DNA from: Isoetes taiwanensis
Taxonomy: Eukaryota; Streptophyta; Lycopodiopsida; Isoetales; Isoetaceae
Direction of reading: 5' to 3'
NCBI GenBank assembly: GCA_021234155.1
Contig: JAJEKV010000054.1
Coordinates: forward strand, 3,831,962 to 3,895,961
DNA length: 64,000 nt
Part shown: one piece after another, positions 1 through 63,914 of the stretch
Layout: the number at the start of each line of letters is the position of its first letter
Position numbering within the stretch: the stretch's first letter is position 1
Notes under the pieces: generated by a model
Databases searched by the model: none
Told to the model about the DNA's origin: nothing
What the model saw: only the letters and a program-made list of their open reading frames with translations
Position numbers and translations under genes: made by a program

Positions 1-1122
1 ATGGCCAAAAGCTCTTGGGCTATATCTTTCTGTGGCCTTCCCCTTGTCCTGATAGTACTGTTGCCTCGGTCCATTTGCTTGAGGTCCTGTTCCTTGTAAG
101 CTCACTGCCTTGAACTCTGCTTCTGACACTATCTTGGGGTTTATTACTCTCACCAGCTTTCTGATCTCCCCATTCAAGCCTTCAATGTACCCCTCTACTG
201 CATGTCTTTCACTTAATTTTGGCACATAGAGCTTCAGCCTCATGAACTCTTCGGTGTACTTTTGGATGTCTTATTGCCCTGCTCCAACCTATAGAACTGT
301 TGCATCATATGGCACTTGTGTTCCCTTGGTACATAATGACACTTAAATGCTTTGGCAAACTTCTTGAATCTGCAGCTATCTCTGCTTAACCCATGGGCTT
401 TGGCATAGCCTTTCCACCAAATCCTGGCTGCTCCCTTAAGGTTGGTCTGTTACTACCCTGCCCTTGTCCTTATCCTTCATGCTATACGCATTCCCATACT
501 CCCTCATTTCATCCAACCATGCCTTAGCTTCCATTCCAGATCTGTTGTCCCCTGAGAACTGTTCTAACTTCCTGGCTTTCCACACATTGCTCAATGCCGA
601 GTCAACTTTCTTCTGATAGTCGGCTTCCATTCTGCCCCTCTCACGGTTGGGACCTTCCCGGCGGTCCTGTCGCTCATTCTCCTGCTCTTCAGATTCGGAG
701 TCGGAGTCAGAACTAGAGTTGGAGGAATCCGTGCTGGGTGATCTTCTTCTCCGACTTCTCTTCTTTGCCTTGATTGCCCTGTCGGCCGGTGTCTCAGGTA
801 GTTGGACATTCTGGTCTGGTCCCATTGCTGCCGCTCCTACAAGCAAGGCTCTTATTTCGTGGATGTCCGACCTTATCTATGATATTTCTTCTTCTGGGGT
901 TGGTGCCTCGAACTCCTTGTACAGGCTCCTTGGCTGGAATTGCCTTGCGGGTGTCTGGTCTTCCAGAGGTTGTCTATCTTGTTCCACATTCCTGGGTGCT
1001 CTAGCTGTATACACATTAGATTGCACTCTGATGATTAGTTCTTTGTTTGTTATTGCATTGGTTTGTTTGATGATATAATTGTGGGGACAAAATATATCAA
1101 GAGACATGCGTAATATCACCAT
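1..1122 (-). pseudogene. gag (capsid) of element C, partial and broken
   Basis: This is a Ty3-type gag polyprotein, the structural protein of the intracellular particle. Reading leftward it has an N-terminal basic/serine part with an RRRRSPST stretch followed by a Ser/Asp/Glu run (about 690-770). A capsid-like core follows with KLEQFSG, AWLDEM, and then ARIWWKGYAKAHG near 370-440, all motifs shared with the gag of elements A and B. An in-frame stop after PTPEEEIS (about 877) and a frameshift near 436-450 split the frame. The zinc knuckle and the rest lie beyond the window edge. Assignment rests on motif sharing between three copies and its position after ORF-B. Confidence 0.75.
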
Positions 1123-1195: not shown

Positions 1196-2553
1196 CTATT
1201 CTTGGAATCTTCTATAAGCTGGGTTGTCCTCCAAGAATTTCTTGACTTGAGTTGTGCCGACCGTTCGCCCCAAGTTCCTCAAGATGTTGGTGGTCGTGTC
1301 TCCTTGGAGTACGGTCACAAAATCTTCGACCCTTCTCTCTGACGTATAGGCTGCGGTGACTGCCAACCTGACCTGTCGCCTATAAGGGACCGCGAAGTCG
1401 AAGATGCTTAGAGCTATTGTCCTCTTGAAAAGGATGACATGATCGATGTTTGGGGCCATGCGAGCATGTCTTCCGAATTCTGAGAGGGCAATAAGCATAA
1501 AAACTCCTTCTTCCCCATGTGGGCTGAATTGGCGGTGTATAACCGCTATCCTTCCATCAATGAGAAAAGGTAAGTAGAACCTGAGCGCCTTATCATGCCA
1601 TGCCTCCTCTGCCTCCTCTCTGGATCTGATTGCAGCCCTGTGTCTTCCAGAGTATTCATCCACCAGTACTACTATCATTTCCCTGTAGTCGCCGAACATA
1701 GAAGATGCTAAGTTGATATTGCCTCTATCTTGTTCGGCTGGTGCTGCTGTCGAGGTGCTGGGTAGGAGCGCACTCGTTGTTTTCCCTCTGATTCCCATCC
1801 GCTCCTGGATTGCTAAGAACTCCTTCTCTGTGGGTAATTTCTGCTGAGCCATCATCTGCCTGATGCTGGTGTAGGCTTCTATGTCCGCTGATGATTGGCC
1901 CGTGTACGTCTGGGCCTCCCTTATAATGCTGATGGGGAAGTCCTGTATCTCCGGTCGATGAAGTCATCAAGGTCTGGTTGTTGACGTAGGAGATGTAGGA
2001 GCTCATCTATCCAGTATCCCATGTCCCTGCACTTTGGAAGGTTCTTGATGTCATAGAGGCTCAGGTACGCTTCTCCTTAAGGATGATTATCGGGGTTAAG
2101 CTTGTGATGCCTAGCCCAAGTGATGGAGCTGTCCTTGTGGTTCTCAGCCCCTCTTCAAAACTCTGAACTTCCTCCTCAGCTTGCTGCCTTTCTTGTGTTG
2201 GGTCGACGTCTATGATGTCCTCTACGTCCGACTCACGTCCTTCATCTTCCTCCTGCTCTGCCTCCCCGTACTCGAGAAGCATCTGCTCTTCTTCACCTGC
2301 TGCCATGGCCATAGGTTCGAGCTCTAGGGGTTGGACAGATGGTTCTCCTATCTGGATTTGGGCTCTATGAGATAGGAAAATAACTACAGCTGCGGTGTAT
2401 GAGAAATATCTCCTCCTATTTACAGCTACTGACATATAATTAGGCAAGCAGCTAGCGATATTTTCTAGGTACTTGTCTATCTTGGGGATGTCTTGCAGAG
2501 CTGTACGAAAGGGCCATGCTTGGTGCAAAGTATCCTATGCAAGGGGGAAGTTC
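1196..2553 (-). pseudogene. ORF-B of element C, 3' part (unknown retroelement protein)
   Basis: This is the second ORF of the H3-bearing elements. Recognisable blocks shared with the copies at 6754-8279 and 13760-15321 are LPPCIGYF at the break point, YFSYTAAVVIFLSHRA, GLGITSLTPIII, an acidic Glu/Asp run, EFLAIQERMGIR, LRFYLPFLIDGRIAVIH, FDFAVPYRR and a C-terminus with QVKKFLEDNPAYRRFQE. At least two frameshifts (about 2060 and 1860-2000) break it. No family is recognised. Its N-terminal part is at 61387-61571, separated by the insertion of element A. Confidence 0.7.
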
Positions 2554-4045
2554 TGTGACATTCCAGTACGATATATGGTCTTAAGACGATATCACCGCAT
2601 CTTGACCAATCACAGACATCGGCCCAATCGACGCGGTAATACGCCGGCGTACCCAAGCAAGGACGCCCTAGGGGGCAACTTGCAATGGTGCGCACACTTA
2701 GCAATGCGCGCACTTTTAGACCTTTAACCCATTAAAAGGCAGACCAAGGGTCATGGAAACCCTAAACCGGGACCGATAGCCTACATAAGGCACCAAACCC
2801 TAACTTTTTCTTTTTTCGCCCCTGCACCTTCCAGGCTCCAATTGGCCTAAGGAGTCAATTCCAACTCCCACGATCTGCCTGCGCCCCCTTTTGTCGATCA
2901 CTCTTCCGACCGCATCCCGGCTGAAATCAGAGACATGTACGCCTCTGGACGAGAGGAGTGAGGAATGATCAGTATTTGGTCGATTGAATAGCCTAAACCT
3001 TATTCCAGCCTTCGAAACCAAAGTAGGGTTTAGCCTATTAAATCACCCTTAGTAGCCAAGCTGATCCCGAGATTGACTCTAACTAAAGAACCTAACTCTC
3101 ACGAAATAGATTAGTTCTTATTACTTATGTTGATATGATGGACGGATGCATTCTCGTGGACTCATTGTATTGGGAAGGGGGTAGAGACTTAAAGCTTAGT
3201 AGATGATGCTCCTAGCTAGTCCCTCTTAGTGCATTACTAGATTTCGGCTGTGTACAAGAACCCCACCCTGGTTGTGGGTGAAGGGCGGACCGGCTTAGAA
3301 TGAGGTTCGTGTTTCGACCCTTGACCGATCCCTCCGTGTGTAAGGCCCTCTCTGGGGATGTGAGTGACTAGGTCTAATGGCTTGCCACCGAGTGTGGGTA
3401 AGGCATGGGCTCGACACCGTGGGGTGGAGTTCACCTTCCATGGGTTAAGTCGAATAAGGGCGGTGGCCCTCTAGTCACCTTTGGGTCAAGCATGGAAATC
3501 TCGGTGGGAGTGATCCCTACCGCCCCATCTGACTGGGGAGATGCAACCCGGGGAATAGCCCCTTTGGCTATGCATCCGTGAGACTCTGATCCCGGGTCCC
3601 AACACTTTTCAACCTACTACGCACAAAGTGTGCGGGAGGGGCGGATGGAGTGGACAACCCTAAACCATGTTCTTATGCCGCCCAATCCATTGTCACGATG
3701 CAAATGCCTTGAACTCTCGAGACCCAAGCTTGGGTCATCCCACGGAGTCCGAGCCTTGGGTAGGAACTTCCTTTGTATTGTGCTGATCTTTGTCTATGCA
3801 GATGTTGATGTGCCACCCCCGAGGTGGATATATGATGTTATATTCTTGGCGTGTATGTTTACGCCCGGCAGGCTAGGTAGGCCCTGAGGGAGACAGGGTA
3901 AAATGACCCCTTCATTCTTCCCACTGTGGACTCCAGACGGTCACAATGATATGTGGAGGGCCCTGTATCAGTATGGAGCTGGTATGGGGGATGAACTCCT
4001 GTTTGTATACGGTGCGGGCATCGTATATGAGTAGGGGACGTCACA
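2554..4045 (+). repeat. 5' LTR of element A
   Basis: The LTR begins TGTGACATTCCAG and ends GGGGACGTCACA, followed after one base by the primer-binding site. It matches the 3' LTR at 59887-61386 over its whole length (for example TACCCAAGCAAGGA, CCCTAGGGGGCAACTTGC, the block near 3240-3480 and the end near 3950-4045), with many small differences. Near its 3' part are stretches also found in the LTRs of elements B and D. The preceding AGTTC is the target duplication. Confidence 0.9.
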
Positions 4046-4046
4046 G

Positions 4047-4058
4047 TGGTATCAGAGC
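4047..4058 (+). promoter_or_regulatory. Primer-binding site, initiator Met-tRNA type
   Basis: TGGTATCAGAGC lies one base after the LTR end. It is the standard plant LTR-retrotransposon primer site, complementary to the 3' end of initiator methionine tRNA. Confidence 0.9.
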
Positions 4059-4250: not shown

Positions 4251-4510
4251 GTCTCACACGTCGCGCCTAGTCAAAGAACTGAACTTTAGTTTTTGAGCAG
4301 GGCGCTACCTGTGAGACATCGAGCCAAGAACACCTTAAAACTTGATGAGTTTGAGAAAAGTAATATGGTAAGGCCAGTTCCAAGGTAAGAATTAGTTAAA
4401 ATAGTATGTTTAAATCACTTAAACTACTTAAAAATGTGTAAGATCTCACACGTAGCGCCTGGTCTAAAAACTAAACTCTAGTTTTTGAACAGGGCGCTAC
4501 CTGTGAGACC
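4251..4510 (+). repeat. Pair of long hairpins upstream of the H3 ORF (element A leader)
   Basis: There are two imperfect copies of a roughly 67-nt inverted repeat, at 4251-4317 and 4442-4510. The outer arms are (G)TCTCACA and TGTGAGA(C), the next arms contain CGCGCC/AGCGCC and GGCGCT, and the centre is itself palindromic (ACTAAA/TTTAGT). The same hairpin occurs twice more between the H3 ORF and ORF-B (6199-6465). They lie in the leader RNA between primer site and first ORF. Function is unknown; packaging, translation control or a promoter element are possibilities. Confidence 0.8.
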
Positions 4511-4719: not shown

Positions 4720-6054
4720 ATGGCACGGACCAAGCAGACTGCCAGGAAAGCCCGCCCAGGCGAATCGACCAGCGCCCTTGATCCCAGCATGATTCGGCGC
4801 ATGCTTCAAGAGCGCCTCCTTAACCCCAATGGTCAATCTTCTTCGAGTGAGGGAGAACCTTCGAATGAGCACAATAGGGAAGGATCTCAGCAGAGAGGAG
4901 AGCAGAATGAAGAGATGGACCAGCAGATCAACCGGGAAGAAGACGTACACTCGGATGCAGGAACAGAGCTGCTCGAAAAGGAAGACGAGGGAGCACAGAG
5001 AGAAAGGAGAACCAAGGCTCTTGAGGAGCAGAGGCTGCCGATTCCAGAGCCGACCATTGAAGAGCAACTCGAAGCCTGGATCCGTGAGAAGGAGGCCGAG
5101 GAGCGAGAGGAATAGCGGGAGCCGAGGCTTGAGCCGGCGGAGGAAAAAGACCTCGCGGCGTTTATCGCGAAGTATGAACGCCGAGAAAAGAAAAGGGAAG
5201 AAAAGAAGAGGAAGAAGGAGGAGGAGGAGGAGGCGAAAGCAGCAGAGGAACTGAAACAGAAGAAGGGGAAATTTGTGGGGAGCCCAAGGAAGCTCAAGAA
5301 AGTCCCGCAAACCAAGAAGCCCAACCCTAAGATCGTGATCACTGAACGGTCAGCTGACCAGCCCCCGCACTCATCCGACGATTCCGATGAAGACTATGAC
5401 CCCAACACTGTGGGGGCAAGCTCTTCCAAACCCCCGGTTGTTGAGCAAGTAGTACCTGAGCAGATAGTGCCCGAGCAGGAGCAGCCGGACCAAGTGCAGA
5501 AGCCCCCTCCTTATCCGAAGTGGGACAGGAAGAAGCAACCACGGCCTGCCCGGGAGTCCTATGTCACGGACCCTGTCAAGATCTATCAGAGAAAGATGAG
5601 GGAGCACGAGGTATATATGAAGGAGTGGGAGGCTTACAACTCCTACTACCAGGAGAACAGGGTCAGAACTATCGAGGGCGGACATCCAACGAAGAGCCAG
5701 ACTCTAAGGCCGCCACCACCGAAGCCCAAGGTCCCGAAGAAGCCAGCCAAGAAGAAGCCCAGCAGGAAGGAGACCGAGAGAAGAGCACTAAGAGAGATTA
5801 GGCACTTCCAGCGCAGTTTCGGCCTCCTAATTCCCCGTGCCCCCTTTGCTCGTCTAGTCAGGGAAGTAATGCAGGATTTTAAGACCGACATGAGGGTCAC
5901 AGATGAGATGCTGCTGGCACTGCAGGAAGCGGCTGAGCAGAGGATAGTGCAACATTTTGAAGACTCGACGGCTTGCACTGTTCATGCGAAGCGAGTAACC
6001 CTCATGAGGAAGGACATGCAATTAGCTAGTTTAATTAAGGGAGGTCCCAAATAA
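4720..6054 (+). pseudogene. Retrotransposon-encoded histone H3 with long internal linker (one in-frame TAG)
   Basis: The frame starts MARTKQTARK, identical to the first nine residues of mature histone H3 (A1-K9 after Met removal). It ends with a region of about 91 residues (from about 5779) that aligns without gaps to the H3 histone fold: [51 protein letters not shown]. By hand count about 51 of 91 positions match a plant H3.1 fold as I remember it. C110, H113, K115, K122 and D123 equivalents are present; K56 and K64 equivalents are Arg. Between tail and fold are about 340 residues: acidic Glu-rich, then Lys/Glu-rich, then a Pro/Lys-rich segment with PPYPKW. The frame totals 445 codons but has a TAG at codon 132 (5113-5115), so as read it is broken unless suppressed. 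No introns. It lies between primer site and ORF-B. Confidence 0.93.
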
Positions 6055-6198: not shown

Positions 6199-6465
6199 GT
6201 CTCACACGTCGCGCCTGGTAAAGAAACTAAAGTTTAGTTTTTGAACGAGGCACTACCTGTGAGACCTTGCCCAAATTTGCCCAAAACAGCTCCAAATTGA
6301 CCAAGTAAGGGGTCAATTCTGCCTAATTTGATGAGTCTGTCATCCTTATACCCTTATTTTACCCAAATTGGACATGTTTTGATCAAAATGGGACTGATGT
6401 CTCACACGTCGCGCCTAGTCAAGAAACTAAAGTGTAGCTTTTGAACGAGGCGCTACCTGTGAGAC
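6199..6465 (+). repeat. Pair of long hairpins between the H3 ORF and ORF-B (element A)
   Basis: Two copies (6199-6265 and 6399-6465) of the hairpin seen at 4251-4510. The arms are GTCTCACACGTCGCGCC and a partner with GGCGCTACCTGTGAGAC (GGCACT in the first copy). The H3 ORF is thus bracketed by two hairpins on each side, and both ORFs are each preceded by two hairpins at similar distance. Confidence 0.8.
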
Positions 6466-6753
6466 CTCCTACCATTTCTTCACCATAACTTGTCCAAGTG
6501 ATCTCCAACTTGTTATGTTAGGATCTTTAGGTAACCCAGTCATGCTCAAACCCTTAAATTAGTCTTCCAATTCCCATTTAGACCTCAATATAGGCTAGAA
6601 TTGCCCAACTCCAAGAATTTTCCAAGTCACCCAAAAATTAGGGTTTCCCCTTTTTTCTATAAATAGGTCCCTCATTTCTTACGTACCACCCTACGAACCT
6701 AGCTCCCTGAGGCGCTCTTGCATCTGTTTGCTACTCTCTTCCTCGCTACACTC

Positions 6754-8279
6754 ATGGCAACCTCTGATTTCAGGCGATGGTACAGCGCTAGCGCTCATGC
6801 TGCCGAGGCTGACATCGATGAGATTTTCCGGGTCTTCCGGAAAGAGATAGATGTCCAAGCAACCTTGCACGCAACCCCAGCATATAGCAGAGTCTTGTCT
6901 GAATTCCAAGCTAGGGTAGGGCCATCTTTAGTGCAGCTCCCACCTTGCATAGGCTACTTTGTTCATAGGCAATCCCTTCAAGCAGCCTTAGGCGATGTTC
7001 CAAACATTGCCAAGTATCTCACAAACAAGGCCCAACAAGATGCAGGAGCCAATGGTCCGGGATTGTCAAGCGGGGACCAAGTATTTCTCTTTCAACGCTG
7101 CCTTAGCAATTTTTCTTACCCACCGTGCCGAGAACCCCATGGGAGAAACCTCCATTCCCCCCATGGATGTGGACCCATTAGCCACAAAGAAGAAGACAAT
7201 GACTCCTTTTCGCAGACGTGAGCAAGAAAGAAAAGAAGAAGACAAGGAGTCAGAAGAAGGGGATGAGGACTACGTCGAGCTCGACCCAGCGGAAGAGCAG
7301 CGGCTAGCAGAACAAGAGTTGCAGGAATTCGAAAGAAGCCGGCAAACTCTCAGGATCGCGCCACCCCTTGGGCTAGGCATCACAAGCCTAGCCCCCATCA
7401 TCATCGAGAGCGAAGAGTATTTGCTCCTAAGCGACATCCAAAACCTCCCTGAGTGCAGGGAAAGAGAGTATCGACCCGACGAGCTGCTGCACCAACTCCG
7501 GAGAACAGACCTGGATGACTTCATCGTCCGAGGAACTTCCGACTTCCCACTCCAAGTAAGGGAAGCCGACACTTACACGGGAGAGTCGATCTCCGATATT
7601 CAAGCCTACGGCAACATCAGGCAGATTATGGAGGCGCGGCAACTATCGACGGAGGAGGAGTTCCTTGCTCTACAGGAACAGATGGGGATCCGCCACAAGA
7701 CCTCGAACATCTTAACGGCAAGTTCTTCGACAACACCTCCCCGAGAGCGAAGAGGCGAGTTCGACCTCAAGAGAGCTTCAGCGAATCCGAGAGACTGGGG
7801 AGCTCACCACGGTGGAGGTTCCATGACTATGCCAGCCAGACACGAGTTGGAGGCCGAGGCGAGGACCCCGCCACACAATGACAGTCGCTGCGGTATTACC
7901 TTCCCCTGCTGATGGACGGAAGAATAGCAGTAATTCACCGCAAATTCACCCCCAGGGGCGAGGAAGGAGTATCGATGCTAATTGCGCTCTCAGGCTTTGT
8001 TTCTAAGATGCTCGGCTACCTCCCAACACCGGTATGCCATCCTCGTGAAGAGAGCGGTAGCACTCGATATTTTGACTTCGCCATACCTTACAGACGGGCG
8101 GGGAAGGCTGGCAAAGGACCGCGACCTATACCTCCGAACGCAGGATAGAAGATTTGGCGAGAGCCTTGCAGGGTGGATCTTCAATCAACGTCCTTAGGAA
8201 CTTGGGTCATTCAGTAGGAACAGCCCAAGTGAAGAAGTTCCTAGAGGATAATCCATCATACTGGCGATTTCAAGAATAG
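6754..8279 (+). pseudogene. ORF-B of element A (conserved unknown retroelement protein), frameshifted
   Basis: The likely start is the ATG at 6754 (MATSDFRRWYS), because element C has the matching MATSAFRRW start. The frame then shows VGPSLVQLPPCIGYF, YFSFNAALAIFLTHRAE, an acidic stretch, GLGITSLAPIII, EFLALQEQMGIR, LRYYLP, DGRIAVIHRKFTPRGEEGV, DFAIPYRRAG and ends QVKKFLEDNPSYWRFQE. Frameshifts near 7010-7060, 7800-7910 and 8040-8140 break it. Intact length would be about 500 residues. I recognise no domain. It is not gag, which follows separately. Conservation in three elements between H3 and gag suggests a real element protein. Confidence 0.75.
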
Positions 8280-8449
8280 TTAGACTCTTGATCCCGGAAG
8301 CCTTTTTGTATTAACATATTATATAATATGAATATAATTTCTTTTGCACTTTAAGTGTTGTGTTGATGTAATTTTGTTCCGCAACTATACCAACAACATA
8401 TATAATGCAAGAAGAACAAATAAAACTAACTGTACAGCCATGACCAACT

Positions 8450-9710
8450 GTGTATGCAGATAGGGAACAACGAACGGTCGAGAAAAATAGGAGGCTCGAC
8501 GAAGATGAAAGGACCCCCGACAGACAACATATCCCAAGGAACCTGTTCGGCCAATATGGCCCCCTGACTCCAGAAGAGGAGATGTCACAAATGAGGACGG
8601 AGCTGGACCAGATTAAAGCTCTATTAGCGGCACAAGCATCATCCGGGCCGCAAACGACACCCCGAAAGTCGGGGAAAGACAAGAGGAGGAGTAAGAGAAG
8701 GAGGTCCCCCAGCACAGAAACCTCCGACTCAAGCTCGGCCTCGGACTCTGAGTCCGAGAAAGAGGCGGAAGAAGTGTTGGACCGCAGAGACGGTACCGGT
8801 AAGGAAGTTAAAGGCAATTGGATTACCGGAAGAAGGTAGACTTCTCAAGACCTGGGCAACGTATGGAAGGCCCGGAAACTCGAACAATTCTCGGGGGAGA
8901 ACATGTCGATTAGAAGCAGAGGCATGGCTGGGCCTAAATGAGTGAAACGGCAATGCCTATGGCATGAAGGACAAGGACAAAGGCGTGGTAGCAACCGCCA
9001 ATCCTTGAAGGGAGCCGCACGAATCTGGTGGAAGGGCTATGCTAAGGCGCATGGCTTGAGCAGTAGATCGGCAAGATTTAAGAAGTTCTCAAAAGCCTTC
9101 AAGTGCCACTATGTTCCGGGAACACAAGTCAAATATGATGCAGCAGTTCTACGATTTGCGGCAAGGCTACAAGACGGCAAGCGTATACACCGAAGAGTTT
9201 ATGAGACTAAGGTGTATGTGCGAAGTTGAGCGGTGAAACACCTTGATGGGAAAGCTACATAGAAGAACTGAACGAGGAGATCAGAAACCTCGTAAGGGCA
9301 ATAGACCCAACCACGATTAATGCGGGCGGAATCCAAGGCAATTAGTTTGCAAGGATCGGGGCCTGCAGGCAGTAGAAGCAGCCCTACTACCGGGATAGAG
9401 ACAAAGCAACGGGGAGTTCTGACCCTAGGGCAGCCAACCCAAGTCCAAACAAAGTCCCCATACAATAGCAACCGGGGAAACTTGGCCGGGGAAAAGAAAG
9501 GTGTCCTTCAAGGACAAACAGGGAAGGTTCCAACTACACCGAAGCGAAGACGGTCCTTCTTACAAAAGCGATGGCCAAGGAGAAAAAGAGGAATGCATGG
9601 AGAAGCGGCTCTGCTTTAGATGTTTCCAAAGACCAACCGAACGGCGAAGCGCCCATTTGTTATGAGCTCGGCCCTTAGCGAGAGTTGGGCGGATGGGACA
9701 CTCCATCGAT
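8450..9710 (+). pseudogene. gag of element A, broken
   Basis: This is capsid/nucleocapsid coding sequence. The start at 8450 (MYADREQ) is the first Met before conserved residues. It has a basic RRSPST stretch with a following Ser/Asp/Glu run (8690-8770), NVWKARKLEQFSG near 8860, ARIWWKGYAKAHG near 9020, FSKAFKCHYVPG near 9100 and a degenerate zinc knuckle CFRCF near 9610 that lacks the His and last Cys. A stop at 8837-8839 and several frameshifts are present. No intact protease with a DSG or DTG triad could be read between here and RT. Confidence 0.7.
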
Positions 9711-10319
9711 GATGAGGGCGAGGCAAAGACGCTGATTACATTGTGGTGAGTGCCACATCTTGGCCGCTATAGATCTGAAAATGCAGAGACCCAAGATAAG
9801 GTAATATCCCGGTAGGGAAGGCAAAGGCCAAGTCTTTCATAGTCTTGATAGACTCGAAGTAGCCATAACTTTGCATCCCCGAGGATGGTTGAAATGTTGA
9901 AATTAAAACCCTAAAGTCCAAACCAAGACCCGTAATCTTGGCAAGCTGAGCGATAAGACATCTGGTGGGAAAAGGATCAATTTCGACATTGACTTACCGG
10001 GAATAAATATCCCGATGGGGGAGCGTGATGATGGGCATTGGCAAGTCACGACCTCATAATAGGAATGGAGTACCTTGGGCCAGCGAGGAGCCATAATTGA
10101 TTGTGGAAAGCGGAAGGTGACCCTCACAGCGCCCGGCGGCAAAGTCATTGCGATCCGCGGGTAAAGAAGTTACTCCCGTCATGCGGTGTATATACGTTAA
10201 GAAGGCGCTCAAGTCTATAAAGAGCGGCGGGTAGCATACATCTTCAAACTTCGAGGTTGAGGAACCCGAAGTCGAGAGGGAAGCAAAGAAGACAAAGTGC
10301 TCGACAAGTTGCCCAAGCA

Positions 10320-11905
10320 AATCGCCAACTTGATCCGCGGAGTTCCACGATCTCTTTCCGGATGAGATCGAGCAGCTTCCTCCCTACAAGGGAGTAGAGT
10401 GTGAGATAACACTCGAACTAGGGACCAAGCCGACGAGCAAGGCCCCATATAGAATGACCACACAGGAACTCACGGACCTAAAGAAGCAGTTACAAGAATT
10501 GCTCGATCTAGGCTTCATCAGGCCTAGCGTCTCACCATTTGGGGCACCCATCCTCTTTGTCAAGAAAAAGGATGGAAGCTCGAGGATGTGCATAGATTAC
10601 AGACAATTGAACAAGCACACCATCAAGAACAATGCGCACTCCCCGGATCGGACGACTTGATGGATCAGCTCAAAAAGGGCAAAGGTCTTCTCAAGATCGA
10701 CCTAAAGGTCGAGGTTATCACCGGATCAGAATAAAGGAAGAGGACATCCACAAAGCGGCTTTTCAGAACCCGGTATGGGCATTACGAGTTCACCGTAATG
10801 CCATTTGGACTATCAATGCCCGGCTACGTTCATGAGACTCATGAACGACATCTTCAGAGAATTCTTGGACACCTTCGTTTCGTCATAGTATTCTTCGACG
10901 ATATTCTGGTGTATAGCAAATCCATTGAGGAGCATGCACAACACGTAAGAAAGGTGCTCGAGAAGTTAAGGAGGCATCAGTTGTATGCCAAGTTGTCGAA
11001 GTGCCGCCAATGAGAGAAGGTGGAATACCTCGCTCATGTGATTTCAGTGAAGGAATCTCGTGGACCCGCCAAGATTGAAGCAGTAATCCAATGGCCAGCA
11101 CCAAAAAACGTTGAGGTCAGAAATTTCCTTGGCCTAGCAGGGTATTACAGAAAGTTCGTGAAGAACTTCGCAAAGATAGCAGCCCCACTGACAGACTTGA
11201 CAAAGGCGGAGAAAGTGAAAAATTGGGCAGACCATTGGCTCAAGAAAGCCCAAGCAGGATTTGAATTGTTGAAGGAAGCTTTGACAACCGGCCCCGTCTT
11301 AACCCTGCCAGACCCGGAAAAGGACAAGTTAGTGGCGACGGACGCAAGCAAGATAGCCACCGGTGCAGTGCTCATGCAAGAAGAGCGGGTAATAGCGTAC
11401 GACTCAAGGAAGATGAGAGCAGCGAAATGCGTTACCGATACGACCAAGAGCTGCTAGCAGTTGTCAGGGCGTTAAGAATCTGGAGGCATTACCTCTTAGG
11501 GAGGAAGTTCCAACTGGACACTGATCACCAGAGCCTCCAATACGTATTCACGCAACCACATCTCAATCTGAGGCAGCGAAGGTGGATGGAGTTTCTCGAG
11601 GAGTACGACTTTGATATAGTCTACAAGCTCGGGAAACTTAATGTGGTAGCAGATGCGCTTTCAAGGCATCCGCTGACAACCAGGGTGCACTACAACGCAA
11701 TCTCGACGCTCTTCAGTGATTTCGGGAAAAAGATAGAAGAAACCTTGCCAACAGAGGTGGACTTCAAGGAAGTATGGGCAAGCTTGTGCAAGGAAGCGAG
11801 AACGGATAAGGAGAGGGAAACCTTCAAAAATTTTAAGAAGGAAGGTAACCTCCTATACCATAAGAACAAGTTGTGCGTGCCAGAATCATCTGGAGTAAGA
11901 AAGCT
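10320..11905 (+). pseudogene. pol of element A: reverse transcriptase and RNase H, broken
   Basis: This is Ty3-type RT. The RT approach is [21 protein letters not shown] and LDLGFIRPS, then [15 protein letters not shown] and CIDYRQLNK (10500-10620). The catalytic box reads FFDDILVYS near 10890 (10883-10918), with FLGLAGYYRKFV near 11130. RNase H follows with VATDASKIATGAVL, YDQELLAVV, FQLDTDHQSL and NVVADALSRHP (11330-11680). Stops and frameshifts occur near 10660, 10750-10860, 11013 and 11455. The reading ends at about 11905, where sequence of element B in the opposite orientation begins. The last part of the linker before integrase is missing. Confidence 0.85.
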
Positions 11906-12143
11906 TGAGGTCAACTAGCTCTGGAGTACTCATCCTATAGGGGGCCTTGCTGGTAGGCTTAGCATCTGGTGCTAGTGTGGTTTCACACTCGATACCCCTA
12001 TAGGGTGGTAATTGACGGATTTTATCCGTAAACACATCATGGAACTTCTTGATTAGCCTTGCTATTGGCCTAGGCAACTGGTTCAAGCTTGGCTCGCTTT
12101 TCTTCTCCTGACCGGGCTCAATTAGACTAAGGATATACTCCAC
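11905..12143 (-). pseudogene. pol fragment of element B (RT start), truncated
   Basis: The minus frame reads [36 protein letters not shown], homologous to the plus-strand RT approach at 10340-10490. It is cut after LVDLK, after which the frame runs into the antisense of element A's RNase H end. Only 84 bp separate it from the end of gag, so the protease region has been deleted in this copy. Confidence 0.8.
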
Positions 12144-13759: not shown

Positions 13760-15321
13760 ATCGTTGAGATCCCTTCATGGACTTGAAGAAATTCTTCACG
13801 TCCCTGAGTCGAAGGCCCTTGCCGACGTTAACGTAGGATGTTTCTAGATGATCCGCCTTTGAGAGCTCGAGCCATTTGAGGTGGTGGAAGTGGAGGTGCT
13901 ATGGCCGCTACGACCGTCATTGGTGCATCACAGGTGGCTCCTGGTGAAGTCGAGGTTGTAGAGTACTACGGATCTTTTGAAGAGAATGACATGATCCGTG
14001 TTGTCTCTCAACTTGGCGTGCTACCCAAACCCTGAGAGTACTATCAAGAGTGTTACGGCCTCCTCCCCTCGTGGGCTGAACTCCATGTGGAAGACAATCA
14101 ACTGGCCCTGACTAAGGACTGGGAGATAGTATCGAAGCGCCTTCCCAGATTCCGCCGCCTTTGACCCCGTGCCCTTCCTTTGAGCTGCTCTGCCATAGAC
14201 GTCCAGTGCTAGGTGGTCTTCATGGTCCCTCCACATGGTGGTTGCACTGTCTAGATTGATGTTGCTGGATGCCTCTCGCATGCTTCGTGCTCGAACAGGT
14301 TGGCTAGAGCTTGGGCCCCTCCCTGGTTTATACATCCTACTTTGGATCGCTTGAAACTCCTCCTCTGGAATGATTGGCGGCTGTCGGTGATACAATTCCC
14401 TTATGTATTCATATGCGGCGACGTCGAACATCGTGTCGCCGGCATAAGAGTGCCGCTCTGCTACCTCCCTTAGGACTTCTTGGTATGAATAGTCGATGAA
14501 GTCGCTCTGCTGTTCCTTTGCAATCAGACCTAAGAACTCGTCGATCCTGAGCCCTTCTTCTAAGATATATGGAAGATGGAGGATGTCATTTGCAAGGATG
14601 TACTCCTCCCCTTTGATCATTATCGGCGATAGTGTTGTAATGCCGATGGGTGGTTCGTTGACCCGCCTGATGTCTTCATCGTGCCTTGCTATTTGCCTCT
14701 CCATTCTTGCTGCTTCCCTGCTCTCCCAATCTTGATCGTCCTCCCCTTCCTGTTCATAGTCTTGCTCGATCTGAAGTGCCCCTGATGCAATGCCACGGTA
14801 GACATATTTTGAGGATTGAATCTCGTGGATCTGGTCTTGATCTACCCCGATGTTGAGTTGTGCAAGGTCCAAGGGTTGGATCGAAGGATCCCCCACCCTG
14901 TTGATTGCCCTGTAATGCATAAACAAAGATAGAGCCGCATGCGCCGAGACATACCTATGTCTGTGAGCCTTACAACTCATATAATCAGGCATATTCTTCG
15001 TCCTATCCCACAGCTGCCCCTTGACTCTGGATCCCCCGCCTATGACTTGACTTAACGACTCCAAAGACACCCACTCGCCTCCCCTTGGGGGAAGGCTGAC
15101 TTCCCAGGGTAAGACTTGTTGGTCATACTGGGATACTATATATCTGTGTAATAGGGGGTTCTGGTCAGGGTTGTATAAAAGTCGAAGAGATGATCAAAGA
15201 CATGGAAGGCCTCCTCTGCAGGGAAATCATGGATGTGGTTGGCATTGTTGTACCATTGAACAAGTTTATGGGCGCCATTGAGCAGAGATGAGAGCAGAAA
15301 ATGGTTTGGAAGGATTGACAA
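13760..15321 (-). pseudogene. ORF-B of element B (unknown retroelement protein), frameshifted
   Basis: The longest piece (14021-15070) retains VSAHAALSLFMHYRA, PSIQPLDL, a Glu/Asp/Gln-rich stretch, IGITTLSPIMI, EEFQAIQSRM, LRYYLPVLSQGQLIVFH and FSPRGEEAV. The upstream end (from 15321, with HKLVQWYNNANHIHDF and TRTPYYTDI) is joined through a TA-repeat slip near 15135. The downstream end continues through HVILFKRS to a C-terminus with VGKGLRLRDVKNFFKSM near 13760-13830. It is clearly homologous to the ORF-B copies in A and C, yet strongly diverged. Confidence 0.72.
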
Positions 15322-15569: not shown

Positions 15570-16043
15570 GACTCGGGTCAGGCCGTACGAAACGCATTTG
15601 AGTTCGCGACGCAGGGCCTATCGGCGCGGTGTTGACCTGAGTGGGTCATTTTTGGCAAAACTAGACATTTGCAAGAGCTATAAGACACTAAAATGATGTT
15701 GGGATTAATTCTACACTAATTAGCAACTTATTTTATGTTAAAATTACATGAAAAAGTGCAATTATGGCTGACTCGGGTCAGATCGTACGAAACGCGTCTG
15801 CGTTCGCACTGCAGGGGCCATCGGTGCGGTGTGACCCGAGTGGGCCATTTTTTACTGCTTTTTGATGTTTTTAACAAATTTTAAGTGCTACACTATATTT
15901 CTAAGCAAATTCTAAGCATTGTAACATCTTTTATTACAAAAATTTGATCAATTACCCCACAGTTCAAGCGACACGGGTCAGACCGCGCGAAACACGTTTG
16001 CGTTCGCGACGCAGGGGCCATCAACGCGGTGTGACCCGAATGG
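15570..16043 (-). repeat. Three long hairpins between H3 and ORF-B of element B
   Basis: The hairpins are at about 15570-15643, 15770-15841 and 15969-16043. The outer arms are ACTCGGGTCA and TGACCCGAGT (second copy perfect, the other two with mismatches), with internal GCGC-rich arms. They take the place of the hairpins at 6199-6465 in element A, but the arm sequence is unrelated while complementarity is kept. Confidence 0.75.
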
Positions 16044-16275
16044 GTTGACTTTGGCTCAAAATTTATTTTAAAGGCAAAATTTGACACTGATATTAACAAT
16101 AAGAACATTTTAACTACAATATGAAAGGTTTTACAACAATTTGATTTAGACAAAGAGCACTTTTATACATATAAGAAATTGATTCATACAGGAAGTACTT
16201 TTATATATAAGAATTTGACTTACTCAAAAGATAGTTTTACATGTATAATTTAACTAAGTACAAAATGGGAAGCTT

Positions 16276-17469
16276 CTAGGGCTTCTCCTTACGGATCCTC
16301 CTGACCAGATGGAGATCCTTGGGCATCACTGTCACCCTCTTCGCGTGGATGGCGCATAAGTTGCCCTCCTCAAGCTGGACCAGCTCTGCCTCTGTTGCCT
16401 CTTGCAGGGATCGGACCGTTAGGGGTGTGACACTATAATCGGTCTGGAACTCCTGCGTAATCTCTCGGAGGAGTCGTTCGAACGGCGCCTTCTGGATCAG
16501 GAGATTAGTGCACTGCTGGAAGTGCCTAATCTCCCGAAATACCCAGGCGTGCTTCGAATTAGGCCCGTGGTGGACCTTCTTCGGCAGCTCAAGCCGTGGT
16601 GGTGGCGGCTTTGGCTGGTTCTTCGGCCTCCTGCCCTTGACGTACTTCTGTGCGTTCTGCTTACAATACCAATCATTGTATCTCCTCCACCTGCGGAGGT
16701 ACTCTTGGTATGCCTTCTTCCATCTTTGGAACTCGCAGTCTTGCTTCAACATGAACTTGTGTTCCCCTACCTTCTGCGCTTCACTACCTTCGGTGGCTTG
16801 GGCCACTTCGGGTAGGGTGGACGGGCGTCGGGGTTAGATGTTTTTCCCGCGCCCCCCTCGGGGTTGTCCTCCTCCTGCCCGCCGCTTCCTTCTTCCTTAT
16901 TCTCCTCCTCCTTCTCCTCCTCGTCGGTTGCCTCCCGACGAGGTTCTTCGATGTGAACTGTCCCTCGAGGGCGATCCTGGTCCGTCTTGGACCTCTTTGC
17001 CCTCCGCCTGTTCTCCTCCTCCCTCTCCCTCTTCTTCCTCTTGGCCTGCTCCTCCGGCCATTCCGCTACCTTCTCCTTACCCTTCTTCTTGCTATAGGCG
17101 ACTTCTTCTTGCCTTTGCTCTTCCTCCTCTTTGCTCTCCTTCCTCACGGTCGCCCTCACATTCTTTCTTTGCTCCTCACAGCCCTTTGCGCCTGCTTCTT
17201 TGCTCCTCCTCTGGCTCGACACGGCAAAGGCGAGCTCGGCGGTCTCTCACGTCCCTTTGGGTAGCTCCCGACGAGCTACTCTGCGCCCGCTCCTAGGAGG
17301 CATGGAAAGTCTCGTTCGTCGAGCAGAACGACTCCTTGCGCTCCTCCTCCTCCCTCCCAGGCTTGAGGTGCTCTGGGATCTTCTTACCGCCACCCGCTAC
17401 TGCCTCCGCCATGGAAGAGGTGTGCCTTGGGCTCCTATACTTCTGAGCTGTGCATTTGGTTTGGGCCAT
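16276..17469 (-). pseudogene. Histone H3-like ORF of element B, broken
   Basis: The start is at 17469 and reads MAQTKCTAQK, aligned to the H3 tail with T3, K4, T6, A7 and K9 kept while R2, Q5 and R8 are changed. A charged linker follows, rich in Glu/Lys/Arg and ending PPYPKWPK. The C-terminus (16276-16545) is a very recognisable H3 fold: [34 protein letters not shown], then [15 protein letters not shown] and RRIRKEK. This copy is closer to canonical H3 at the C-terminal end than element A, but lacks one residue between helices 2 and 3. A TAG at 17293-17295, a frameshift near there and another near 16780-16850 make it non-functional. Confidence 0.9.
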
Positions 17470-18169: not shown

Positions 18170-18181
18170 GCTCTGATACCA
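18170..18181 (-). promoter_or_regulatory. Primer-binding site of element B
   Basis: The minus strand reads TGGTATCAGAGC one base after the LTR end, the same initiator-tRNA primer site as element A. Confidence 0.9.
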
Positions 18182-18182
18182 C

Positions 18183-19694
18183 TGTGACGTCCCCTACTCC
18201 CTCTACGATGCACACATCATATCTAAGGCGAGTATTCCGTGGCGACCATCTTGGCGGGGGCCATCCTGACACCAATCCCAAGGACTGAGCCAGCAAGGGA
18301 AGAGTGGATGTGTCATTTGCCCCATCTTCCTTCGGGTCGACCTAGCTGCGGAAGCGTGAATAAACATGAGCACATGTCAACAATACATCAATAGAGTCAC
18401 CCCGAAGGGTGAATACATCATAACATATCACGAACAAGCATCAACATAATAACAGTAACAAAGGGGAATCCTACCCAGGGCTCAGACTCATGGGGGATCG
18501 ACTGACGGCTTGGGTCTCCAGAAGTCAATGCAGACCGAATTCATGGCAAATGGATTGGGCTGGCATAAGAACATGGCTGTTGGGTAGTCCACTCCAACCG
18601 CCCCTTCCGTGCACACTTTGCAGAGTAGGTTGACAAGTATTGGGACCAGACCGTAGCCTGCCGGGTACATAGCCAAGAGGGCTACTGCTGGGTTGCATCT
18701 CCCTAGTCCCGATGAGGCAGGAGGAGAGTCACCTCTCCTCCAGAGGCATCCATGCCCATCACAGGTGGCTAGAGGGCCACTGCCAGAGGTGTCGAGCTCA
18801 TGCCTTGCCCACACTCAGTGGCAAACCATTAAGCCTAGCTCACTAAGATCCCTGGTAGGCTTTACACACCAGAGGGATCAATCAATGATGGGACAAGTCC
18901 CCCTTATTCCACCGGTCTAGCCCCTCCACCTACAACCAGACGGGCTCTTGTGCACGGGCCGCATTAATTAGGTATTAATGAGGTTATCTAGGAACATCTG
19001 CCACAGAGACTTTTAGGGTCTCTACCCCTCTTCCCAATACACGGGAGAGCATAGAATGAACACCATAATCATCAAAGAACTGAATTGTAGAATAATATCT
19101 AATCTAACTACCTAAACATCCAAAGTTAGGTTCTTTTGTTAGAGCTTATGATCTTGGGACCTATAAGGCCTCTAAGGCTGAACTAACATGCTAAATCAGC
19201 TCGTTGTCAAGCTAAAAGGCGGCTTTGCACAACAGAATGACCATTTACCTAGCCCCTGACTTGCTTCAGATCCTCAGAATGCGTCCATGCTTCTGATCCT
19301 GCTGAAGACTGTTGCTGCTGGAAGATCTGTTGTGCAAGGGTGTTTTTTCAGAGCCTGGCAATGCGAACTAGAGTCCTGGCTTGGCCGGAATGGCTCTGTG
19401 AAACCCTAATTGCGAAAAAGGAAGAAGGGTTTAGGGTTTAAGGGGGAAGCCCTTATATAGAAACCCTTAGGGTTAGGTTAACATTGGCCAAATGGGTTTT
19501 GCCATTTGGCATGGGGTTTATAGTTGCATATGTTTATCAAACATGCACAACATACGAGGTTGCCCCCTAGGTGCAATCCTTGCCCCCTAGGTGCAACCCT
19601 CTACGTCTCGCTAGTACTTGTCATGATGACATGTACGTGTGACGTGGCAGTATAATATACGTATTTGGGCCGTATATTATACTGGAACGTCACA
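18183..19694 (-). repeat. 5' LTR of element B
   Basis: On the minus strand it starts TGTGACGTTCCAGTATAATATACG and ends GGGACGTCACA. It shares blocks with the LTR of element A, for example CCCTAGGGGGCAA-like sequence near 19560-19590, the TACCAGGG/ACACGGGAGG region and the end. Near its start is a perfect 13-bp hairpin (19649-19661 with 19671-19683). The second LTR and target duplication are not available. Confidence 0.85.
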
Positions 19695-57647: not shown

Positions 57648-57814
57648 TAGTGCTTAATAGGTGCTTTTTGGGACATTTTCTTTGTATTTTTGAAATATTT
57701 TTATTTTATTTTTTGGTATTTTTTCCTGAAACGCATTAATATTACGCGTCGGAATACAAAATTTCAGCCTTAATGGAATCATAGAAAAAAAGATAAAAAT
57801 AAATAAGTTTTCCA
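57648..57814. other. Junction segment between LTR D and element A integrase
   Basis: AT-rich, with no gene. It contains the right boundary of the block that separates element A's RNase H from its integrase; the boundary is placed near 57810-57820, where codons for GPGMKKQIAHH begin. Confidence 0.5.
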
Positions 57815-59058
57815 GCAATGGCCCAGGAATGAAGAAGCAGATAGCCCACCACATCAAGGAGTGTCAGCTATGCCAACAAACGAAGGCAGAACAACTTCGA
57901 ATACCAGGGGCATTAGAACCATTAGTGGTGCCAAACGCTAAGTGGGAGGTCGTCAACATGGACTTTATAACAGGACTGCCAAGGACAATAAGAGGTAAGG
58001 ATGCCTTGATGGTCGTGGTCGACAAGTTGTCGAAGATGGCCCATTTTGTGCCTTGCAGGACCACGGACACAACTATGGACACAGCAAAGCTCTTCACCAA
58101 AGAGATCTTCAGACTCCATGGCATGCCAAGGGAAATTATCTCCGACCGAGATCCGAAGTTCATCAGTGCCTTCTGGCAGGATCACTTCACAACGATTGGA
58201 ACAAACCTATCCATGAGCATGGCCTATCATCCACAGACGGATGGGCAAACGGAGCCTATCAACAGAATATTGGAAGACATGCTCCGAAACTATGTCTGGA
58301 ACAAGCAAGGTATGTGGGAGGAATTTATTCACTTGGTGGAGTTTGTATACGATAGCACCAAGCAGGAATCATCCCAAATGTCGCCGTTCATGATCAACTA
58401 TGGCTACCAATGCCTAACTCCAGACACGTGGCACAATCCCGTGTCAAAAGTGGAAGTTTCGCAGCAAATGTTGAGCGACATGCAGCAGCTTGTGGAAGAA
58501 GTCCGAGGGTACCTTCTAGCAGCAAGGAGTCGGCAGAAGAGCATTGCCGACAAACATCGGACAGCCAGAGAATTCCAAGTTGGAGATAATGTAAGGCTTA
58601 AGATCAAGGTAAAGCAGGCGAAGCTCCGCATCGGAAATTGCAAGAAGCTTGCTCCAAGGTGGGCTGGACCCTTCAGAATAATCAAGAGAGTGGGTAACCA
58701 ATCCTACAAGTTAGACTTGCCAGCACACCTAAAGATCCACAAAGTCTTCCACGTGAGTTTGCTGAAGAAGCACACTCCCAATCCAGATGAAGTCCTGGAC
58801 ACCCCAACGATGTTGGAAATGACAGAAGACCAGATAGAAATAGTTCCAGAACTAATTCTTGATAAAGCATTCAAGAAAACAAGGAGATCGGAGTTTCTCC
58901 AATACTTAGTCAAGTGGAAACACTTGCCGGTGGAAGACGTGACATGGGCACTTAAAAGAGACCTGGAAAAGCAGCATCCACAGTTTATGGAGCAATGGGA
59001 CGGCAAGGTCATCTCCGAAGAAATCGGCTCAGGCATGTCGATTTGTGTAGATTCATAG
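57815..59058 (+). CDS. Integrase of element A with C-terminal chromodomain
   Basis: Open for 409 codons from the Met at 57829, but its true N-terminus is missing: only the CxxC half of the HHCC zinc finger remains (CQLC). Numbering from that Met, the catalytic core has D45 (NMDFITGLP), D106 (ISDRDPKF) and E142 (GQTEPINR), an exact DD35E spacing. A beta-barrel-like C-terminal part follows (GDNVRLKI, LAPRWAGPFRI, FHVSLLKKH). Residues about 340-390 form a chromodomain-type segment (PELILDKAF, LQYLVKWKHLPVEDVTW). Only the central cage Trp (VKWKH) of the three aromatic residues of HP1 is present, as in some plant chromoviruses. Integrase joins element cDNA to the chromosome, and the chromodomain is thought to guide it to marked histone H3. 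Confidence 0.92.
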
Positions 59059-59886: not shown

Positions 59887-61386
59887 TGTGACGTTCCAGT
59901 ACGATATACGGTCTCAAGACGTATACCGTACTGCACCGTCACGCGTACACGACGTCCAATCGACGTGTACGCCGACGTGTACCCAAGCAAGGATGCCCTA
60001 GGGGGCAACTTGCAATGGTGCGCACTCTTAGCAATGCGCGCACTTTTAGACCTTTAACCCATTAAAGGCAGACCAAGGGTCATGGAAACCCTAAACCTAA
60101 CTGATAGCCTACATAAGGCACCAAACCCTAACTTTCCCTTTTTCGCCCACAGACCTTCCGTGCTCCAATTCGCGCGCCTAAGGAGTCAATTCCAACTCCC
60201 ACGGTCTGCCCGTGCGCCCCAGCTTGTCAGATCACTCTTCCGACCGCATCCCGAAGCAGAACAGAGACATGTACGCCTTCGGATCGAGAGGAGTGAACCA
60301 GTGATCAGGTATTTGGTCGATTGAATAGCCTAAACCTTATTCCAGCCTTCGAACCAGTAGGTTTAGCCTATTAAATCACCCTTAGTAGCCAAGCTGATCC
60401 TGAGATTGACTCTAACTAAAGAACCTAACTCTACGAAATAGATTAGTTCTTATTACTTATGTTGATATGATGGACGGATGCATTCTGTGGACTCATTGTA
60501 TTGGGAAGGGGGGTAGAGACTTAAAGCTTAGTAGATGATGCTCCTAGCTAGTCCCTCTTAGTGCATTACTAGATTTCGGCCTGTGTACAAGAACCCCACC
60601 TGGTTGTGGGTGAAGGGCCGACCGGGCTTAGAATGAGGTTCGATGTTCTCGACCCTTGACCGATCCCTCCCGTGTGTAAGGCCCCACCGGGATCGAGAGT
60701 GACTAGGTCTAATGGCTTGCCACTGAGTGTGGGTAAGGCATGGGCTCGACACCCGTGGGGTGGAGTTCACCTTCCAGTGGGTTAAGTCGAATAAGGGCGG
60801 TGGCCCTCTAGTCACCTTGGGTCAGCATGGAGATCTCTGGTGGGAGTGATCCCTACCTGCCCCATCGGAACTGGGGAGATGCAACCCAGGAATAGCCCCT
60901 TTGGCTATGCATCCCCGGAAGGATACCGGGTCCCAACACTTTTCAACCTACTCTGCAAAGTGTGCACAGGAGGGGCAGATGGAATGGACAACCCTAAGCC
61001 ATGTTCTTATGCCAGCCCAATCCATTGTCACGATTCCGTCTGCACTGAACTCTGGAGACCCAAGCTTGTCAGTCATCCCCTGGAGTCTGAGCCTTGGGTA
61101 GGAACTTCCTTTGTATTGTGCTGATCTTTGTCTATGCAGATGTTGATGTGCCACCCTTCGAGGTGGATATATGATGTTATGTTACTGACGTGTATGTTTA
61201 CGCCTTCGGCAGCCTAGGTAGGCCGAGGGAGATCGGGGTAAAATGACCCTTCATTCTTCCCAACCGTGGACTCGTGACGGTCACGTTGATATGTGGAGGG
61301 CCCTCAGACGAAGATGGAGCTGGTATGGGGGATGAACTCCTATTTGTATACGGTGCGGGCATCGTATATGAGTAGGGGACGTCACA
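59887..61386 (+). repeat. 3' LTR of element A
   Basis: Starts TGTGACGTTCCAGTACGATATACGG and ends GTAGGGGACGTCACA, followed by target duplication AGTTC. A 13-bp near-perfect hairpin is at 59898-59910 with 59920-59932, close to its start. It corresponds end to end to 2554-4045. Confidence 0.92.
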
Positions 61387-61571: not shown

Positions 61572-61866
61572 GATGCTAGAGTTGCTGGGGATATCAAACA
61601 GATGAGGAAGCGCCTCTGGGAGCTGAAAAATCGTCTTCGAGTGAGGAGCAAAGGTGTAGGGTGCAAATGAGGGTTGTGGTCCTATTTATAGACAAAACCC
61701 TAATTTTGGAAAATTTTAGGGTTTGGGAATATCTATCATTCTAAGGTGCTGCTATGCAAATCATAGGCAAACTAGGTTAAAGAGTGCATTCTAAGAATCT
61801 TATTGCAACAAATTCCATCTAATTTGGAGGAAGTTGGGGCAAGTTAGGTCAAATTTGGTTTGACCA

Positions 61867-62133
61867 CTCACACAGTGCGCGAGAGGCAGTTCCAAAATTT
61901 TCGGATTGGCTCCTGGCGCACTCTGTGAGAGGTGGGGCTCTGTTTGGGTCTAAGATGGCTCAAAACTTGCAATCTAAGGGTCAAATCCTACTTATCTCGA
62001 CGAGTTAGGTCAGATTTTGTCCTTACTTTCTACATTTGGCCAAGTCTTGGCAAAGATTAGTGGCCGACCACTCACACAGTGCGCGAGAGGCAGTTCCAAA
62101 ATTTTCAGATTGGCTCCTGGCGCACTCTGTGAG
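61867..62133 (-). repeat. Hairpin pair between H3 and ORF-B of element C
   Basis: Inverted repeats at 61867-61929 and 62071-62133 with arms CTCACACAGTGCGC and GCGCACTCTGTGAG, nearly identical to each other. Confidence 0.82.
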
Positions 62134-62271
62134 GGTGGGGTCAAAATCACTGACTTTTGATCCAAATTGGATAATTCCAAATGCAGATATCATTAATACA
62201 ACCTAATTACTTACAATTTTACACTTTATCATGATCAAAACTTAATTTTGTATTTACAAAAAGTTCTATAT

Positions 62272-63414: not shown

Positions 63415-63638
63415 GTTTTGAAATAGCGTGATCGCCTTCCGGGCGCCTAAAAATCGCCTTGTTGGACGAAGAGCTGCTAATTGGAGAAGGAAGGTGAAAA
63501 TGAGGAACCTTTATGGTCAATTTATAGGTCTGGGGATTTTAGGGTTTGGACCTGCAATTTCATGTTGTATAATCCTGCAAGGTATTAGTGTTGGTAGAAT
63601 AATTACATTAGGTTTGTTTAGGCAAAAAGTGTCCACCA

Positions 63639-63914
63639 CTCACACAGTGCGCGAGAGGCACTTCCGAAAATTTTGGATTGGCCCAGGGCGCACTCTGTGA
63701 GGGGTCACCTCTTTTTTACTCCAATTTTCAATTTATAAAGTGTTTCTTAGTATTGTAACATACAGATCTAGCTCAATTTTAAGGATTAAGCTGCCTTGCA
63801 CTATCAGATTTCACTAATTATGCATCTTTCTAGGCCAACATGGGTCCACCACTCACGCACTACGCGAGAAGCCATTCCAAAATTCTCGGATTGGCACTGG
63901 GCGCACTCTGTGAG
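63639..63914 (-). repeat. Hairpin pair in the leader of element C, upstream of the H3 ORF
   Basis: Inverted repeats at 63639-63701 (arms CTCACACAGTGCGC and GCGCACTCTGTGAG) and 63852-63914 (arms CTCACGCACTACGC and GCGCACTCTGTGAG, weaker). They take the same position as 4251-4510 in element A. Confidence 0.8.

Follow-up and report, generated by a model that had tools for sequence, protein, structure and literature searches.

The window is a 64,000-nucleotide stretch of DNA in which three related LTR retrotransposons, elements A, B, and C, were identified. All three carry an H3-type ORF1, and in each of them this ORF is broken. Element A (2554-61386) is classified as a Ty3-group chromovirus with a histone H3 gene as its first ORF, the order being PBS, H3-ORF1, ORF2, Gag, and Pol. 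Its features are as follows.

2549..2553 (left) and 61387-61391 (right), no strand: TSD AGTTC, from comparison of the element ends
2554..4045, + strand: 5' LTR of element A, TGTGAC...GTCACA, from self-BLAST and reading of the ends
4046..4058, + strand: PBS GTGGTATCAGAGC of element A, from a pattern search, the tRNA assignment being presumed
4720..4749, + strand: H3 tail MARTKQTARK of element A, from translation and comparison of copies
4720..5115, + strand: ORF1 part 1, tail and first part of the linker, up to the TAG at 5113-5115, from translation
5116..6054, + strand: ORF1 part 2, H3 fold preceded by the remaining linker and closed by the TAA, from translation and Pfam
5785..6042, + strand: H3 histone fold, ALREIR...LIKG, from Pfam, PDB match, and alignment
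6703..8276, + strand: ORF2 of element A, in pieces, extent approximate, from open segments and likeness to B, C, and family II
8444..9226, + strand: Gag region of element A, extent approximate, from family II gag homology at 8852-9118 and open segments
9812..11969, + strand: Pol of element A, fragmented, reaching through RNase H into the beginning of integrase, from domain matches and family II homology
57730..59055, + strand: Pol of element A, integrase core, SH3-like domain, and chromodomain, from domains and family II pol homology at 57823-58047
59887..61386, + strand: 3' LTR of element A, from self-BLAST and ends

The LTRs of element A are about 1.5 kb long and 89% identical to each other, and the 5-bp TSD lies outside both. 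The PBS at 4046, which we take to be of the initiator-tRNA type, has three matches in the window with one mismatch or fewer, compared to 0.09 expected. About 46 kb, including element B, separate the two pieces of Pol. The integrase core, the SH3-like domain, and the chromodomain (PF00385, E 1.1e-10, at the C-terminal end of the integrase) are all in the second piece. The ORF2 pieces of element A gave zero Pfam matches above the cut-off. A sequence-only reading of this DNA had placed an H3 gene between the primer site and the second ORF of a Ty3-type LTR element with an integrase, and the LTRs, TSD, and PBS found here bear this out. Element A resembles the plant Ty3/Gypsy chromoviruses (Metaviridae) in its LTRs, 5-bp TSD, PBS, Gag, protease-RT-RNase H-integrase, and integrase chromodomain. 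Unlike them, its lineage has two extra ORFs between the PBS and Gag, the first of which has the H3 fold.

ORF1 of element A begins with the codons for MARTKQTARK. The frame opening at 4720, MARTKQTARKARPGES..., is 131 codons long before the in-frame TAG, which splits ORF1 into 131 and 312 codons; the second part is closed by a TAA whose last base is 6054. Between the tail and the fold lie about 345 residues of linker. The sequence-only reading had described an exact H3 tail and a single frame from tail to fold. The tail is exact through K9, but S10 and the K27/S28 region are absent, and tail and fold do share a frame, although the TAG within it had been overlooked.

The second part of ORF1 matched the Pfam Histone profile (PF00125) with 101 bits and an E of 7e-29 (cut-off 26.4), confirming the H3 histone fold. 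When solved structures were searched, H3.3 from the PDB gave an E of 1.7e-28, and H3 chains were the top relatives. The fold aligned to H3 without gaps across 86 residues. Structure prediction was less decisive: the AlphaFold model of the H3 domain has five helices, but its confidence is modest to weak (pLDDT 63, pTM 0.39). The model gave 300 matches in the PDB (E up to 0.001), and the 50 of these that were listed are all nucleosome or chromatin complexes with 49-57% identity, but with TM scores of only 0.40-0.52.

Elements B and C contribute the following features.

13952..15193, - strand: ORF2 of element B, extent approximate, from an open frame and family II likeness
16276..17469, - strand: ORF1 of element B, tail MAQTKCTAQK, fold at 16279-16542, from Pfam Histone and alignment
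18170..18182, - strand: PBS of element B, from a pattern search
18183..19694, - strand: 5' LTR of element B, ends inferred through the match to the element A LTR, from self-comparison
291..633, - strand: Gag region of element C, from homology
1196..2534, - strand: remaining ORF2 of element C, in pieces, the N-terminal part lying across element A from 61387, from self-comparison
62272..63414, - strand: ORF1 of element C, MVRTKQTARM, fold at about 62284-62541, from alignment and Histone match

Element B is situated inside element A on the opposite strand, and its ORF1 combines a decayed tail with an H3 fold (Pfam Histone E 1.2e-25). In element C, ORF1 is interrupted by two in-frame stops and likewise includes an H3 fold; its sequence as far as the second of these stops matched Histone with an E of 9e-9. 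The TSD and the two ORF2 halves of element C indicate that element A is inserted within ORF2 of element C. No homologues of element B ORF2 were found among 6105 scored candidates at E up to 0.001 in a search of 5.8 billion proteins, and a structure model of this ORF2 was uninformative (pLDDT 44).

A search of the 1.66-Gb assembly with the 312-residue half of ORF1 gave 127 scored matches, a lower bound given 17,774 first-look candidates. By hand count, the matched stretch is free of stops in 78 of the 127 and has a stop inside in 49. Sites coding for exactly MARTKQTARK, found with a degenerate pattern across the 1.66 Gb, numbered 1051, while the reversed control pattern gave 0, which rules out a chance origin of the tail. 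The next codon begins WS in 25 of the 1051 exact tails (19 TC, 4 AC, 2 TG), host genes included. Ten tail sites were picked for codon diversity and judged by eye on ORF1 sequence. A-, B-, or C-type ORF1 sequence followed the tail in all ten, and an H3 fold piece lay in the tail's own frame in seven (not in L065, L067, and L069). With at least 127 scored copies, several subfamilies, and these ten tail sites, the H3 ORF is not the product of a single insertion event.

A set of 43 rows, consisting of 40 fetched copies of the 127 plus elements A, B, and C, was used for closer comparison. Of the 38 copies read, 9 have a frame that runs uninterrupted from tail to fold, giving ORFs of 403-450 residues. 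By the chosen cut-off, the tail was found in 34 of the 43 rows, and five of the remaining nine show a partial tail. Residues 1-9 are near invariant in the 34 rows (K4 in 34/34, K9 in 33/34), while the tail codons differ at silent sites. Residue 10 is A in 17 of these rows, P in 10, R in 6, T in 1, and S in 0. The PBS is readable in 27 rows, and in 26 of them the ORF1 start codon follows it by 649-679 nt. Inspection by eye of the complete linkers that were read, two of the open copies among them, showed no K27/S28 or K36 motif.

In a further search of the genome, the top 15 matches, 85-95% identical to the query, were canonical H3 genes of the host. The host H3 sequence (L056) and the PBS type look like those of the green lineage. 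Below the canonical genes came at least 135 matches with 52-84% identity, many of which lay within open frames 400-567 codons long. Nine, chosen mostly for their long frames, were fetched as the sample of a second group, family II. Eight of the nine are long proteins that start MA.TK(S or R)..DP.T and have a near-canonical H3 core, and the other, L055, is a C-terminal part only. The H3 tail is absent from all eight starts read. One family II copy, when read outward, contains a PBS, H3-ORF1, ORF2, Gag, protease, RT, RNase H, and an integrase zinc-binding domain; it presents the RT-RNase H-integrase order that element A has in pieces. The Pol pieces of element A are 41-80% identical to the Pol of this copy. 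ORF2 of elements A and B is recognizably related to the ORF2 of this copy, sharing 23-30% of residues with a best E of 1.6e-7 when few sequences were compared, and an ORF2 between the H3 ORF and Gag is common to both branches (L060:62-1507 in family II). Similarity between the linkers of family I and family II was undetectable.

The family II folds form one group (100/100) placed among the canonical H3s with weak support (82/85), and the family I folds, including that of element C, form a separate group (100/97). The element B fold falls outside both families in both trees, on a long branch that makes its place unsure. We read these relationships as probably reflecting one H3 capture in a common ancestor followed by divergence, with two or more captures as the alternative.

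Selection was estimated from dN/dS, calculated as mean dN over mean dS. The ratio for the fold was 0.05-0.11 (87 codons, 43 rows) in six dS bins from 0.05 to 4, using 651 of 903 pairs, the others being saturated or having a dS below 0.05. A middle piece of the linker (59 codons, 42 rows, 553 of 861 pairs) gave 0.07-0.15, and the family II fold gave 0.021 (36 pairs, 9 copies). All copies were picked via protein similarity, which biases dN downward. Mean dN in the fold comparison is near 0.1 at a dS of 1.5-4, a value that is hard to reach without constraint despite this bias. These ratios indicate that purifying selection acts on the H3 fold in both family I and family II.

Several of the H3 residues that contact H4, the second H3 (H3-H3'), and DNA are kept. 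R69, R72, R83, C110, H113, K115, D123, and L126 are present in 41 of 41 A-type rows, R116 and T118 in 39, and E97 in 38, and the H4 interface residues are largely kept in the A-type folds. ORF1 is like canonical H3 in its tail residues 1-9 and histone fold. Canonical H3 has about 135 residues with K27 and K36 motifs, whereas ORF1 has a long linker between tail and fold and lacks S10 and the K27/S28 region. R63 is changed to P in 41 of 41 A-type rows, K64 to R in 40, K56 to R in 37, and K122 to Q in 34, although the window copy retains K122; K79 is variable. The R42-P43-G44 entry segment is lost, and R42, P43, G44, and R63 are altered in all 41 rows where read. Judging from the residues kept and lost in the fold and tail, a protein made from ORF1 would be able to bind H4 as well as a second copy of itself. 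It could carry marks at K4 and K9, whereas marking at S10 or K27 would be impossible.

The H3 ORF is flanked on both its 5' and 3' sides by pairs of dyad-symmetric boxes of about 67-75 nt, whose sequence differs between subfamilies. Those in the window are listed below.

4251..4317, + strand: box 1 of element A, between PBS and ORF1, from sequence symmetry and RNA folding
4444..4509, + strand: box 2 of element A, about 192 bp past box 1, from sequence symmetry
6199..6265, + strand: box 3 of element A, between ORF1 and ORF2, from sequence symmetry and RNA folding
6399..6465, + strand: box 4 of element A, 200 bp past box 3, from sequence symmetry
15570..16044, - strand: three boxes of element B, 3' of ORF1, spaced 200 and 200 bp, from a box search
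61862..62140, - strand: two boxes of element C after ORF1, spaced 203-204 bp, from a box search
63623..63941, - strand: two boxes of element C before ORF1, spaced 213 bp, from a box search

By hand count, at least one box is present in 39 of 40 A-type copies. Both upstream boxes are seen in 31 A-type copies, 27 of which space them 190-194 bp apart; for the downstream boxes the distance is 199-201 bp in 30 of 32. In family II, two boxes were seen at three of eight ORF1 loci, separated there by 108 bp. As RNA hairpins, the boxes fold better than shuffled sequences, with z values of -5.3 and -5.6 (A), -2.7 (B), -6.7 (C), and -3.7 (family II). Within the hairpin alignment, changes on both sides were found in 7 of 22 pairs, two of the seven resting on a single row each. 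The covariation term was small (-0.64), and two of the pairs fail to form in 8 of 30 rows; the alignment contains one wrong-strand row, L036, that is to be dropped. A palindrome scan recovered only one of element A's boxes, and an Rfam search gave no lead.

The homology of ORF1, its position in the element, its copy number, its conservation, and the selection on it are shown by these data; how its product acts can be proposed from them. We tentatively favor a surrogate H3, one that would associate with host H4 and become part of chromatin. This reading draws on the tail and fold homology, the kept contact residues, and the selection on the fold, as well as on the 1051 tails, the presence of ORF1 in all three window elements, and the family II H3 core in the same place. 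The fold would pair with host H4, host chaperones would carry the protein, and it would be deposited in nucleosomes, either those forming on new DNA of the element or those of the host's chromatin. K4 and K9 enzymes and readers would then encounter the tail, and the linker of about 300-350 residues may be the element's own tether or effector. Phosphorylation of S10 and S28 is a mitotic switch and K27 is a methylation site; the loss of S10, K27, and S28 would keep K4/K9 marking and escape the mitotic phospho-switch and K27 methylation. Doubt about a surrogate H3 comes from the changes at R42, P43, G44, and R63, from the mostly Q residue at 122, and from the variation at K79. Another source of doubt is the 300-350 residues between tail and core, which would be unusual in a nucleosome. 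The weak structure model, the choice of the dN/dS copies by protein similarity, and the place of the element B fold outside family I also weigh against this reading. Since family II has no tail, the tail would not be needed by the whole lineage. Among the possible modes of action, nucleosome entry is judged the likeliest, followed by decoy action and then tethering.

The second of these modes, which we consider less likely, is that the product stays outside nucleosomes and titrates K4/K9 writers, readers, or H3 chaperones, weakening silencing. Short H3-tail mimicry provides precedents for such a decoy, and a tail that is exact through K9 and un-H3-like from residue 10 is comparable in length to the motifs that readers or enzymes recognize. 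However, a tail mimic needs no kept fold, yet the fold is under selection even in the tail-less family II.

Tethering of integration is somewhat unlikely. Here, the fold would bind H4, a chaperone, or nucleosomes and bring the pre-integration complex to replicating or new chromatin, with the linker binding Gag or integrase. ORF1 is ahead of ORF2 and Gag in element A and in the followed family II copy, and the linker's middle piece is conserved, both of which would suit a tether. The integrase chromodomain may also be relevant. A cage of aromatics in chromodomains binds methyl-lysine, and not all chromoviruses keep the complete cage. Read by eye in element A only, the chromodomain (VPELILD...VKWKHLP, 58600-59055) seems to be without two of the three cage aromatics, so another tether could help. 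The linkers of families I and II, though, share no detectable similarity. We also considered a closed loop, with the chromodomain reading K9 methylation on the element's own H3, and lowered it on account of the two aromatics that look lost.

It is doubtful, although suggested by box spacing of about one nucleosome repeat (192/200 bp in A, 200 in B, and 203-213 in C), that the lineage makes its own chromatin. The element H3, markable at K4 and K9, would be loaded on element DNA, with the boxes positioning particles or placing factors. If true, a mobile element would carry a self-specified epigenetic state. Given the 108-bp distance between family II boxes and the ability of the boxes to fold as RNA hairpins, an RNA role is equally likely, with the boxes serving as structured leaders of ORF1 and ORF2.

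Descent of the fold from plant centromeric H3, with targeting to centromeres, is improbable. Family I shares H53, F54, P63, A65, L119, and R121 with two proteins, P0058 and P0100, that we take from their sequence to be plant CENH3-like. Apart from these few fold residues, family I differs from plant CENH3 in its H3-like tail and in its loop 1, which has the canonical H3 length and is not lengthened as in CENH3. The best tree built with these CENH3-like rows keeps family I apart from them, and the tree joining them is 5.5 lnL worse (p-AU 0.105), a difference too small to reject it. That ORF1 is a functionless passenger, picked up from a host H3 gene and caught inside the element, is scarcely credible: many copies are broken, including all three in the window and the 49 of 127 with a stop, but the idea is rejected on the fold dN/dS of both families, and the conserved tail, the several subfamilies, and the 78 stop-free matches also speak against it.

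Transposons are usually viewed as targets of histone-based silencing. An element lineage with a selected H3 suggests that the parasite, too, works through histones, and about 1000 H3-tail sites in one genome, with tail and fold under selection, would point to an unsuspected route through host chromatin. This opens tests of the effect of a natural H3 without S10 and K27, of whether mobile elements specify their own chromatin, and of how far element-borne H3 genes distort histone gene counts, antibody work, and mass-spectrometry work in such hosts.

The sequence-only reading had known of no described LTR retrotransposon with its own H3, and this agrees with our search: no description of a retrotransposon-encoded H3 was found in the open literature searched, with subscription journals and most preprints outside its coverage. 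We likewise know of no described Ty3/Gypsy element with an H3-fold ORF. Virus-encoded histones include those of giant viruses and the bracovirus H4. These are also core histones captured by a parasite; the case here differs in being an LTR retrotransposon and in having a single H3-type protein. Scans of viral contigs with element A, P0075, and P0012 as queries and a search of a phage collection gave no lead.

Among the best 120 of 506 proteins matching the 312-residue half of ORF1, none was above 48% query cover. The contig proteins P0012, P0025, P0056, P0075, P0098, P0105, and P0110 mostly have a tail-like start, a long linker, and a C-terminal H3 fold, and similar H3 captures may have occurred elsewhere. 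The linkers of ten contig proteins tested, including P0012, P0025, P0056, P0075, and P0098, are unlike those of family I or II. The family II protein search was dominated by multi-H3 proteins among the best 120 of 5573.

Some additional observations were made. ARTKQTARK-like stretches, long linkers, and H3 folds were seen in P0056, P0063, P0075, P0098, P0105, P0110, P0120, and P0060, with one cluster of 156 members and one of 25 among them; these are possibly mobile-element H3s of other organisms. P0012 and P0025 are 345-360 aa long and branch near family I in both trees, and the P0012 fold has the best BLAST score to the element A fold among the best 120 proteins (62% identity). Within the window, a pair of short LTRs of 181 bp, 100% identical, lies at 39002-39182 and 41772-41952, beside a PBS-like sequence, ATGGTATCAGAGC, at 41760 (- strand) and an open frame at 39518-40618 (- strand). 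Together they may mark a small LTR element, different in kind from the others, that inserted recently.
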